NCBI RefSeq assembly: GCF_006912135.1
Contig: NZ_VIRS01000045.1
Coordinates: 1-53,710 of the forward strand
Reading direction: 5' to 3'
Source of the DNA: Cryptosporangium phraense
GTDB lineage: Bacteria; Actinomycetota; Actinomycetes; Mycobacteriales; Cryptosporangiaceae
DNA: 53,710 nt
Numbering within the stretch: the first letter of the stretch is position 1; every line of letters begins with the position of its first letter. The notes under the pieces were generated by a model. That model was given only the letters and a program-made list of their open reading frames with translations. It had not been told where the DNA came from and made no database searches. Shown piece by piece: positions 16,967 through 26,951 of the stretch. The position numbers and the translations under genes are program-made.

Positions 16967-17935
16967 TCACGCGACGAGGCGCTCGGCGGTCGTCACGTCG
17001 GTGATCAACACGTTCACCCAGTCGTTGAGCAGCGCGGCGCGGATCGCCGAGAACTTGCGTTCTCCGCCCGCCACCGCCACCCGCCGCTCGATCGTCCGCA
17101 GGTCGTTACCGGTGATGCCGACGACCCGCTGGTCGAGCCGCGACTTCACCGGCCGCCCGCCGTCGTCGAAGAACCTCAGGCAGACGTCTCCGACCGCGCC
17201 GAGCGCGCGCAGCTCGTCCTGGTCCGACTCGGCGACCGCGTTGCCCGACTGCAGGAGCAACGGCGACGGCTCCAGGCTGCCGATGCCGACCAGCGCGACC
17301 GTCAGCTCCTTCCACTGCGCCATCACCGCGGCCACGGCGTCGTCCTGGGTCAGCGCCCGGCGGATGGCCGGCGTCCCGACCAGGCCGGGTGACGGCACGA
17401 ACACCGGCCTCGCGCCGGTCAGCTCGGCCAGGCGCCCGGTCAGCCGGGTCGCCTGCACCTGCGCCTCCGGGCTCCCGACGCCCCCCACGATCTGGACGAC
17501 ACGGTCGGCGACCTGCGTGTGCTTGGGGTGCATCGCGTCGACGGCCGCCAGCAGCGACTCGCTCCAGGACGAGATGCCGATGACGTCACCGCCCTTGAGG
17601 GTGGCGTCCAGGTACACGGCGGCGGCCGCGCCCAGGGCCGGGATCACGTCGCCGTTCGAGCCGTCGGTGTCGACCACGACCGCGTCACGCAGGCCGTAGC
17701 GCGTCTGGAGCTGTTCCTCCAGCTCGGTGTGGACGCCCGGGGGCAGCACGACGACGGTCCGGACGATGCCCCGGGTCGTCGCCTCCTTGAGCAGCCGGGA
17801 GACGCGGGGCTGCGAGATGTTCAGCTGGGCCGCGATCTCGGGCTGGCGCATGCCCTGCTCGTGGTACATGCGGGCGACCTTGGCCAGCATCCGCAGCTGC
17901 TCGGCGCCCACCGTGCGCACGCCGGTGACCGGCAT
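16967..17935 (-). CDS. SorC/DeoR-type sugar-binding transcriptional regulator
   Basis: A 322-residue regulator with an N-terminal helix-turn-helix (GMRQPEIAAQLNISQPRVSR) and a C-terminal sugar-phosphate-binding domain with VVDTDGSNGDVIPALG and IGISSWSESLLAA. The ATG at 17935 is chosen because AGGGAG lies 6 nt upstream. The ATG at 17950 has no ribosome site and falls inside a candidate operator (17947-17958) that recurs at the two divergent promoters near 25800-25965. It therefore probably regulates itself and the seven-gene sugar operon that ends just upstream. The effector is likely a phosphorylated sugar intermediate, as is usual in the family. Confidence 0.9.
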   Translation of the reverse strand: MPVTGVRTVGAEQLRMLAKVARMYHEQGMRQPEIAAQLNISQPRVSRLLKEATTRGIVRTVVVLPPGVHTELEEQLQTRYGLRDAVVVDTDGSNGDVIPALGAAAAVYLDATLKGGDVIGISSWSESLLAAVDAMHPKHTQVADRVVQIVGGVGSPEAQVQATRLTGRLAELTGARPVFVPSPGLVGTPAIRRALTQDDAVAAVMAQWKELTVALVGIGSLEPSPLLLQSGNAVAESDQDELRALGAVGDVCLRFFDDGGRPVKSRLDQRVVGITGNDLRTIERRVAVAGGERKFSAIRAALLNDWVNVLITDVTTAERLVA

Positions 17936-17946
17936 CGGCGTCTCCC

Positions 17947-17958
17947 TCATATCTATTC
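17947..17958 (-). promoter_or_regulatory. Candidate SorC operator copy 1 (regulator gene)
   Basis: On the minus strand this reads GAATAGATATGA, matching 10 of 12 positions of the palindrome GAATAGATATTC found before the transketolase operon. It lies just upstream of the regulator's probable start at 17935, consistent with autoregulation. Confidence 0.6.
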
Positions 17959-17975
17959 ACCGAAAGTCTAGCGAT

Positions 17976-18011
17976 GCGGGGCGGGGCCCCGGAGAGCGAG
18001 CCCCACCCCGC
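17976..18011. terminator. GC-rich stem-loop between the sugar operon and its regulator
   Basis: GCGGGGCGGGGC at 17976-17987 pairs with GCCCCACCCCGC at 18000-18011 with one mismatch around a 12-nt loop. It immediately follows the binding-protein stop codon on the minus strand. There is no T-run, as is common for actinobacterial terminators. It should separate the operon transcript from the regulator, which has its own operator. Confidence 0.6.
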
Positions 18012-18017
18012 GCGAAT

Positions 18018-19004
18018 TCAGGACTTGCGGGCGAAGACGCCGAAGTCGTCGGCGTTGGCCTTGGTGACGATCTCGCAGTCGATCGACTGCTTCTCCGGCT
18101 CGCCGGACTTGCCGTCCTTGATCGTCTTGTCGGCCTGCGTCACCGCGTTCTCGGCGGCCAGCGCGGCCGGCTGGAGCGCGGTGGCCAGCATCTCGCCGGC
18201 CTTGATCGCCGCGATCGCGTCCGGGCTGCCGTCGAAGCCGACGACGACGACCTTGTTCAGCAGGCCGGCGCCCTTGAGCGCGGCCACCGCGCCGAGCGCC
18301 ATCGTGTCGTTGCCGGCGATGACGCCCTGGATGTCCTTGTTCTTCTGGATGATCGTCTCCATCTTGGTGAACGCCTCCTGCTGGTCCCAGTTGGCGCTCA
18401 CGCTGGCGACCTTCTTCATCGCCGGGTACTGCGAGATCACGTCGGCGTAGCCCTTGGAGCGGACGCCCGCGTTGGTGTCGGACTCCTTACCGGTGAGCTC
18501 GACGTAGTTGCCCTTGCTCTGCATGCCCTTGACGAACTCCTGCGCGGCCAGCTGGGCGCCCTGGGCGTTGTTGGAGACGATCTGGGCGGTGGCGACGCCC
18601 GTCTTGTTGATCTCGCGGTCGATGAGGAAGACCGGGATGCCGGCGTCCTTGGCCTTCTGCACCGGGCCGATCGAGGCGTCGGCGCCCGCGTTGTCGAGCA
18701 CGATCGCCTTGGCCTTGCGCGAGATCGCCGCGTCGATCAGCTCGGACTGCTTGTTCGGGTCGTCGTCGTGGGACGCGACCGAGGTCTCGTAGCCGAGCGA
18801 CTTGGCCTTCGCCGCCGCGGCGTCGGCCTCGGCCTTGAAGAACGGGTTGTCGGGCGACGGGGTGATGATCGCGATCAGCCCGCCGGCGTCCGACGACGAG
18901 CCCGAGGTGGCGTCGTCGTCGGAGCCACCGCACCCGGCGAGGGCGAAGACGCCGAGGGAGAGAGCGAGGCCGGCCGTGGCCAGACGACGCAGTCTGAGAG
19001 ACAT
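18018..19004 (-). CDS. Ribose-type sugar ABC substrate-binding lipoprotein
   Basis: A 328-residue periplasmic-binding-protein (RbsB-like, Peripla_BP_4) lipoprotein. The signal peptide ends in the lipobox ALAGC with Cys25 and is followed by a Ser/Asp-rich linker. The core shows [39 protein letters not shown] and [13 protein letters not shown], the sugar-contacting segments of the family. It is the last gene of the operon, 48 bp after the permease and before a stem-loop. The ligand is probably a pentose-like monosaccharide; apiose is the hypothesis from pathway context. Confidence 0.92.
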
Positions 19005-25799: not shown

Positions 25800-25802
25800 G
25801 GC

Positions 25803-25814
25803 GAATATCTATTC
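25803..25814 (-). promoter_or_regulatory. Candidate SorC operator copy 2 / promoter of the transketolase operon
   Basis: This is the palindrome GAATAGATATTC on the minus strand, 3 nt before the ATG at 25799. The embedded TAGATA can serve as a -10 element at the distance expected for a leaderless transcript. A related sequence, GAATGTGCATAC, lies at 25821-25832 and may be a weaker second site. Confidence 0.65.
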
Positions 25815-25953
25815 CGGCTCGAATGTGCATACGGCTACCCTGGGGGCGCACCGCGGCTTTCGTCAAGAGCCAATTCGTGATCCCGCTGGCTCGGACGACC
25901 GTTGACACGTAACCGGCCGGAAACTACGTTGGCCGAAACGCCCATTCGGCTAT

Positions 25954-25965
25954 GAATGGATATTC
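25954..25965 (+). promoter_or_regulatory. Candidate SorC operator copy 3 / promoter of the isomerase gene
   Basis: GAATGGATATTC lies 2 nt before the ATG at 25968 and matches copy 2 at 11 of 12 positions. CCATTC at 25942-25947 and GAATGG at 25954-25959 form an overlapping inverted repeat with 6-nt spacing, so more than one dimer may bind. No ribosome site fits before the ATG. Confidence 0.6.
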
Positions 25966-25967
25966 CA

Positions 25968-26951
25968 ATGGAACCGTTATTCGGTGCCGGCATCTGGCAC
26001 TTCGGGCAATACGTCGACCGGTACGCGACGGACGGATACGGTCCCCCGGTCTCCACGCTCGAGGCGATCGACCGCGCCGGTCAGGTCGGGTCGCTGTCGG
26101 TCGTCGACCTGACGTTCCCGTTCGCGCCCGCCGAGCTGCCGGTCTCCGAGGTCGCGGACGCGTTGAAGCGCAACGACCTGCGGGCCATCGCGATCACGCC
26201 GGAGATCTACACCCGGACGTTCGTCAAGGGCGCGTTCACGAACCCTTCCGAGTCGGTGCGGCGGGAGGCTCTGGCGTTGATCTCGGCCGCGGCCGAAGTG
26301 GGCCGCGAGCTGGGCGTCGACTACATCAAGCTGTGGCCGGGGCAGGACGGGTGGGACTACCCGTTCCAGGCCGACTACGCCGAGATCTGGAAGTACTCGG
26401 TCGAGGGCGTGCGCGAGCTGGCCGTGGCGTTCCCCGACCTCAAGTTCGCGATCGAGTACAAGCCCCGCGAGCCGCGCAACCGCATGGTGTTCTCCGGCGT
26501 CGCCCGGACGCTGCTGGCGATCGAGGAGATGGGGCAGCCGAACGTCGGCATCCTGCTCGACTTCGGTCACTCGCTCTACGGCGGCGAGTCACCGGCCGAC
26601 GCGGCGCAGCTGGCGATCTCCCGCGGCCGGCTGTTCGCGATCGACGTGAACGACAACTTCCGGGGCTGGGACGACGACATGGTCGTCGGGTCGGTGCACC
26701 TCACCGAGACGGTCGAGTTCTTCTGGACGCTGCGCAGGCTCGGCTGGGAGGGCGTCTGGCAGCTCGATCAGTTCCCGTTCCGGGAGGATCAGGTGCAGGC
26801 GGCGCGGGACGGTATCGAGGTGATGAGGGCGATCTACCGGGCGATCGACCTGATCGACGAGGACGCGCTGGCCGCGGCCCAGAAGGCTCAGGACGCGCTG
26901 GCCGCCCAGCGCATCATCCGCAAGGCGCTGCTCTCGACGCTCCCGGACTGA
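25968..26951 (+). CDS. TIM-barrel sugar isomerase/epimerase (xylose isomerase-like)
   Basis: A 327-residue barrel of the AP-endonuclease-2/sugar phosphate isomerase superfamily. Likely metal-binding positions are the Glu in [13 protein letters not shown], Asp and His in [12 protein letters not shown], and Asp in [15 protein letters not shown]. The ATG at 25968 is preferred over 25956 because the latter lies inside the candidate operator. It is divergent from the split-transketolase operon with a shared 168-bp control region, so it should supply the ketose for the kinase. D-apiose isomerase of the known transketolase route belongs to this fold. Its 3' end overlaps the convergent GNAT gene by 38 bp. 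Confidence 0.85.

Follow-up and report, generated by a model that had tools for sequence, protein, structure and literature searches.

Apiose is a branched plant sugar and part of rhamnogalacturonan II. A transketolase pathway for it, of the Pectobacterium type and including the isomerase gene apsI, was reportedly set out by Carter et al. in 2018 and is said to be MetaCyc PWY-8089. The locus considered here lies at positions 16,967 to 26,951 of contig NZ_VIRS01000045.1 of the actinomycete Cryptosporangium phraense (RefSeq assembly GCF_006912135.1); the whole contig, 53,710 nucleotides long and C45 of an 8.46-Mb genome, was analysed and is called the window below. The locus encodes both halves of a transketolase, an FGGY kinase, a DUF2291 protein, a ribose-type (CUT2) importer and a SorC regulator, with a divergent isomerase gene, and is very likely an operon for D-apiose catabolism by the known ApsI-AplK-AptAB route, its substrate, reactions, ligand binding and inducer all being inferred. 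The pathway itself is already known, and finding it in another actinomycete is unremarkable; the regulatory part, the operator, is what is new here, and what it contributes is a regulatory code that can be tested. Apiose clusters of distantly related bacteria seem to share a short palindrome accompanied by a second copy at 18 bp, and this mark would tie unlinked genes to apiose use: an importer and an apiosidase-like hydrolase in this genome, and the PF07632 family in relatives. The SorC protein is a candidate sensor for apiose.

Comparison with described systems

In the Pectobacterium-type pathway, as in the window, isomerase, FGGY kinase and two-subunit transketolase belong to one cluster; the window differs in lying in an actinomycete and in its divergent isomerase gene, the Pectobacterium type being known here by description only. 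In the available part of PMC13001218, genes of the Escherichia coli SE15 cluster are named aplK, aptA and aptB, the Escherichia cluster is described as having two oxidoreductases in place of apsI, and cluster-bearing strains of E. fergusonii and of E. coli ST131 and ST1193 are stated to grow on D-apiose, SE15 not being among those named. Like the window, the SE15 cluster (ECSF_RS02670-RS02715) has AplK, AptA, AptB, a ribose-type importer, DUF2291 and a SorC-type regulator, and bears the same palindrome in three exact copies at promoters; unlike the window, it has no isomerase and two SDR oxidoreductases, and its transketolase pair falls outside the isomerase-linked clade. The preliminary description of the locus had taken DUF2291 together with SorC as a possible mark of a new pathway version or of another uncommon sugar. 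That idea has to be given up: since DUF2291, the regulator and the ribose-type importer are all present in the SE15 cluster, and cluster-bearing Escherichia strains grow on D-apiose according to the same part of PMC13001218, they belong to the known cluster.

The oiaX locus of Rhizobium etli p42f resembles the window in its binding protein (67% identical), DUF2291 and importer. It differs in carrying OiaX, a four-carbon acid sugar kinase and an RpiB-like protein downstream, and no transketolase pair was found in the stretch examined.

Gene content and kinship of the proteins

Every gene of the split-transketolase, kinase, DUF2291 and importer operon with its divergent isomerase and SorC regulator, as first described, was confirmed at its coordinates by open frames and Pfam domains:

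16967-17950, minus strand: SorC-family regulator, last gene of the operon (PF04198, 206 bits), presumed repressor of the apiose pathway
18018-19004, minus strand: RbsB-type sugar-binding lipoprotein, the binding protein of the CUT2 (ribose-type) importer
19053-20159, minus strand: CUT2 permease (PF02653)
20156-21688, minus strand: CUT2 double ATPase (PF00005, two stretches)
21685-22422, minus strand: DUF2291 protein accompanying the importer (PF10054, 145 bits), an importer neighbour also in SE15 and R. etli
22419-23993, minus strand: FGGY kinase (PF00370/PF02782; tree), presumed D-apulose kinase (AplK)
23977-24924, minus strand: transketolase C-terminal half, AptB-like (PF02779/PF02780; tree)
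24921-25799, minus strand: transketolase N-terminal half, AptA-like (PF00456; match to 6YAK, 273 bits; tree)
25956-26951, plus strand: TIM-barrel isomerase (PF01261; match to 3KTC), presumed D-apiose isomerase (ApsI)

Because neighbouring minus-strand genes overlap or lie at most 70 bp apart, the eight likely form one operon with SorC last; the presumed apsI is divergent from it across a gap of 156 bp, and the second ATG at 25968 may be its true start. The set is more than a chance grouping: its nine genes recur in the same arrangement in all three other genomes of the genus, and the isomerase had no match at 1e-60 in the one genome examined from another genus of the family. A PADLOC scan of the isomerase found nothing.

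Among solved structures, the isomerase matches 3KTC at 450 bits over residues 7-329, and the next matches are xylose isomerases at no more than 77 bits. 3KTC is presumably the protein from Pectobacterium that was afterwards given the name ApsI and assayed as apiose isomerase; on that identification the match places the window protein in the ApsI family. Eight of the nine window proteins have counterparts in the SE15 apiose cluster, at 33-53% identity, including the SorC protein (39% identical to the cluster regulator) and the transketolase halves (46% to AptA, 39% to AptB). The best solved match of the N-terminal half is the split transketolase 6YAK. A tree was built from 52 joined transketolase pairs; 12 Devosia loci were omitted as near-duplicates, and among the remaining 46 loci, 7 had no usable AptA or AptB. 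In it, a clade of 46 comprises the window, the isomerase-linked pairs and three dehydrogenase-type pairs; SE15 AptAB and a Caballeronia pair join this clade at 99/96, with long branches flagged, and other split transketolases remain outside. Together with the identities, this puts the two-subunit transketolase in the AptAB group. The kinase falls in the AplK group by its tree, identity not deciding the matter: of 64 rows, among them 52 of the 58 kinases linked to an isomerase (those with frames longer than 400 aa) and three of the genome's own five, 60 (the window, the 52, SE15 AplK and six more) are split at 99/97 from four GlpK-like rows.

The binding protein is 67% identical over its mature part, and 64% over the whole alignment, to the R. 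etli protein of structures 5IBQ and 4RY0, and so belongs to that group; the R. etli gene lies in one gene run with DUF2291, the importer and oiaX. The ligand in 5IBQ is presumably apiose, and the window protein is predicted to bind D-apiose. In the comparison with families of proven different substrate, clustering of the window proteins with such families was not seen.

In the proposed pathway, the CUT2 importer with DUF2291 would take up free D-apiose, ApsI would convert it to D-apulose, the FGGY kinase would form D-apulose 4-phosphate, and the two-subunit transketolase would transfer a two-carbon unit to glyceraldehyde 3-phosphate, yielding xylulose 5-phosphate and dihydroxyacetone phosphate; these are reportedly the ApsI, AplK and AptAB reactions of Carter et al. 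2018. SorC would bind composite operators at the two divergent gene starts, which they overlap, each made up of a palindrome and a degenerate copy at 18 bp, and would repress until a sugar phosphate of the pathway appears. The same operator would control an unlinked operon on contig C6, whose importer and apiosidase-like hydrolase may take up and cut apiose-bearing glycosides.

The proposed composite operator

The divergent gap contains the following elements:

25803-25814: operator 1, the palindrome GAATATCTATTC without a mismatch, three bases upstream of the aptA start codon, kept in all four congeneric sequences
25821-25832: degenerate copy of operator 1, 18 bp off, 7 of 10 positions
25902-25930, plus strand: promoter-like TTGACA-17-TACGTT for apsI, read by eye, both hexamers invariant in the four congeneric sequences
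25936-25947: degenerate copy of operator 2, 18 bp off, 6 of 10 positions
25954-25965: operator 2, one-mismatch palindrome overlapping the apsI start

Both palindromic blocks are conserved among the four congeneric sequences and carry inverted copies of GAATATCYATTC; these two are the only inverted GAATATCYATTC pairs in the whole genome, and a reversed control gave none. The general form GAATANNTATTC, defined after inspection of part of the loci, has one exact place in the genome, operator 1; the reversed control likewise matches once, at a different place. A candidate operator at the start of the SorC gene (17947) has two mismatches and is not claimed. Looping of the two operators at a helical phase was likewise set aside: the 12 spacings of 131-224 bp suggest a period near 10.7 (R 0.83), with non-independent spacings and a fitted period.

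Isomerase loci were collected from named genomes, 58 in all. Exact copies of GAATANNTATTC stand near cluster gene starts in 7 of the 32 loci bearing SorC, and copies with at most one mismatch in 16; away from cluster starts there are one exact and 12 one-mismatch copies in the 58 loci. Of the 26 loci without SorC in the fetched stretch, two, L006 and L008, have the exact palindrome near starts, and the L008 stretch ends inside the binding-protein gene, so SorC could lie beyond it. With 19 permuted half-sites, exact matches near starts were absent for 18 and numbered two for one; at one mismatch they were absent for 17, with three sites for one and two for another. Clusters of this kind in E. 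coli, Deinococcus, rhizobia and other actinomycetes also have the palindrome; in SE15 its three exact copies, within 49 kb, are upstream of aplK, the regulator gene and aptA. In eight further genomes or records (about 62 Mb, chosen for having sites, positions converted by hand), one of 11 exact palindromes is outside the cluster, and the reversed control gave two places. The exact palindrome was not found in the Caballeronia and Rhizobium CFT758 clusters, which have a DeoR/GlpR-type regulator.

Of 37 sites selected on the palindrome alone, 29 have a degenerate copy matching at least 6 of 10 positions at a distance of exactly 18 bp, and no other offset among 33 examined gives more than six; once some close relatives are left out and the C6 site is included, the figures are 25 of 31 compared with at most three. 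In the available part of PMC11229326, SorC/DeoR tetramers are described as sitting on two half-operators of 18 bp each, the one a palindrome and the other poorer, and the composite pattern fits this binding mode. The window SorC resembles the repressor of that account in domain make-up (helix-turn-helix matches and the sugar-binding domain PF04198), in the 18-bp unit and in the degenerate second half; it differs in that the repressor there has a conserved DeoR pattern TTCAA and another presumed inducer. The DeoR model scores the window SorC at 217.5 bits, below its equivalog cut-off of 420, and the only match of this protein in its own genome (E up to 0.001) is itself.

Clusters of split transketolase, kinase and SorC without an isomerase, with two dehydrogenases and another binding protein, bear the same palindrome in L083, L084 and L086, and may use a polyol or another form of the sugar. 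In the Caballeronia locus L089 (5968-12810), a split transketolase accompanies a GolD/DthD-type dehydrogenase, DUF2291 and the DeoR/GlpR-type regulator.

An unlinked operon with the same putative operator

One of the one-mismatch palindromes in the genome, at C6:249331, lies three bases upstream of the earliest start codon of a CUT1 binding-protein frame; behind that frame come two permeases and an apiosidase-like protein of family PF13204. The catalytic domain of the latter scores 227.7 bits, over the curated cut-off of 26.5, and the protein is predicted to release apiose. The site has its 18-bp copy (7 of 10) on the side facing away from the gene, as at aptA. In the two Nonomuraea loci, L006 and L008, a C6-like importer, the isomerase and the hydrolase are encoded side by side, facing away from aptA, and both operators lie in between; 7 of the 58 isomerase loci have a full-length relative of the hydrolase (57-75%), three of them checked by Pfam. 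The presence of the palindrome before the C6 operon supports the apiose reading independently of gene types.

It is unlikely that the palindrome belongs to another regulator or recurs by chance, leaving the C6 operon outside the regulon. The operator is known from sequence only, its pattern was drawn up with part of the loci in view, half of the SorC-bearing loci (16 of 32) have no site at up to one mismatch, and one-mismatch places in the genome number 12, two of them in the window, as against four in the reversed control. One of the 12, at C3:120572 (L102, 1501-1512), also has a 7-of-10 copy at the 18-bp distance, with no apiose gene in its neighbourhood; the other eight have 18-bp copies of at most 5 of 10. 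Set against these points are the excess of copies at 18 bp, the three exact palindromes at SE15 promoters, the C6 site with the same spacing to its gene as operator 1 to aptA, and the Nonomuraea loci, where the same importer genes stand behind an operator beside aptA. The operator code, the C6 operon and the PF07632 link were not met in literature on apiose and SorC regulators, no search being aimed at PF07632 or the operator letters; a search for an apiose solute-binding protein or DUF2291 found no paper, and no title on bacterial apiose use was among the matches listed for apiose, sorC and regulator.

The suggestion that the substrate is D-apiose, first made from gene types, has thus been strengthened by the nearness of the isomerase to 3KTC and of the binding protein to 5IBQ/4RY0, by kinship to SE15 AplK and AptAB, and by the operator shared with the apiosidase-like operon. 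Several points weigh against it. The status of 3KTC as the assayed isomerase and the apiose in 5IBQ are presumed, and the incomplete title of 4RY0 names a ribose transporter protein. The kinase is 39% identical to AplK and equally so to GlpK-like glycerol kinases of its own genome, and its top NCBIfam match is GlpK, below cut-off; SE15 AptAB is outside the clade of isomerase-linked pairs. The PF13204 family is broad, the best solved relatives of the C6 hydrolase are distant, at 42, 38 and 32 bits (one is named Apiosidase), and no relative of its gene was found in the three congeners at 1e-30.

It is nevertheless improbable that these enzyme types serve a different pentose or a polyol (e.g., ribose, apiitol or a tetritol) here. 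Such a use would accord with the 4RY0 title, with a Caballeronia cluster that pairs DUF2291 with a GolD/DthD-type dehydrogenase, and with isomerase-free clusters of split transketolase, kinase and SorC in Deinococcus, Agrobacterium and Rhizobium, which have two dehydrogenases and a binding protein 29-31% identical to that of the window; apiose is favoured instead by the 3KTC-type isomerase, by the 5IBQ/4RY0-type binding protein and by the operator-linked apiosidase-like operon. The operon is very probably a well-supported actinomycete member of the known D-apiose transketolase pathway.

PF07632 proteins and a possible role in the release of apiose

A scan of the 58 loci for the composite operator gave 31 matches, compared with none in one shuffle of each, and nine are not near known cluster genes. 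Downstream of a composite operator in L009, L015, L023, L024 and L026 is a nucleoside-hydrolase-like frame of family PF07632; L011 carries the same PF07632 gene as L009. In L054 a double operator match precedes a PF01156 nucleoside hydrolase gene just upstream of the isomerase, and another precedes a pectinesterase gene. By tblastn, PF07632-like genes occur in 14 of the 58 loci, such a gene lies directly after the isomerase on a Croceibacterium plasmid, and the family is rare in a control set (2 of 14 genomes). All 14 loci with PF07632 carry DUF2291, compared with 8 of the 44 others (Fisher p 3e-8; 1e-6 in the 39 actinomycete loci alone), and PF13204 is associated with a CUT1 binding protein (5 of 7 compared with 5 of 51, p 0.001), these p values being inflated by relatedness of the loci. 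Mutual exclusion of PF13204 and PF07632 was considered and dropped, one locus having both (p 1.0). Signal-like N-terminal stretches were seen by eye in some PF07632 proteins, and not in the C6 PF13204 protein.

These associations suggest two ways of freeing apiose: outside the cell by PF07632, the free sugar then being imported, or inside once a glycoside has been taken up. More specifically, and tentatively, the PF07632 proteins of the regulon (Sde182-like, with a nucleoside-hydrolase fold) might be secreted apiofuranosidases that free apiose for the DUF2291 importer, as the counterpart of the inside CUT1/PF13204 route, with one SorC operator marking the whole apiose regulon from Escherichia to Deinococcus and actinomycetes. 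If true, this would be a glycosidase family reusing for apiose the fold of nucleoside hydrolases, which cleave ribofuranosyl bonds. It is slightly more probable than not that the PF07632 genes are instead plant cell-wall genes gathered by chance near apiose genes, with another linkage as target: their loci also hold pectinesterase, GH28 and GH95 genes, Pfam describes PF07632 as cellulose-binding, and the one solved match, 2YHG, is named a cellulose-binding protein. For the single PF07632 gene of C. phraense, which shares its contig with the apiosidase-like operon, no operator was found (the best upstream place matches 8 of 10, with a 4/10 copy), and the family was not found in the three congeners. 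Against a chance gathering stand the composite operators before PF07632 genes in five loci and the presence of DUF2291 in every PF07632 locus.

Distribution and minor observations

Within the fetched stretches, several of which were ended by contig ends, the 58 isomerase loci have both transketolase halves in 49 cases (each half in 50), a kinase match in 54, SorC in 32 and DUF2291 in 22. Apiose-isomerase-like genes apart from transketolase genes were seen on a Pantoea plasmid (L063, 9983-10975) and on the Croceibacterium plasmid (L065, 11983-12963), where a transketolase pair lies about 24 kb from the isomerase-like gene.

In the window, positions 27638-32328 hold a ROK-family regulator beside a second sugar importer (permease, ATPase and xylose-type binding protein), an ordinary xylose-like set adjoining the apiose operon. 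Elsewhere in the same genome, a glycerol-kinase-like reading frame (L068, C3:29600-31165) is reported with one internal TGA. On a Streptomyces plasmid (L090, 5971-9756), a split transketolase stands beside genes for phosphoenolpyruvate mutase and phosphonopyruvate decarboxylase, probably as part of a cluster for a phosphonate product.

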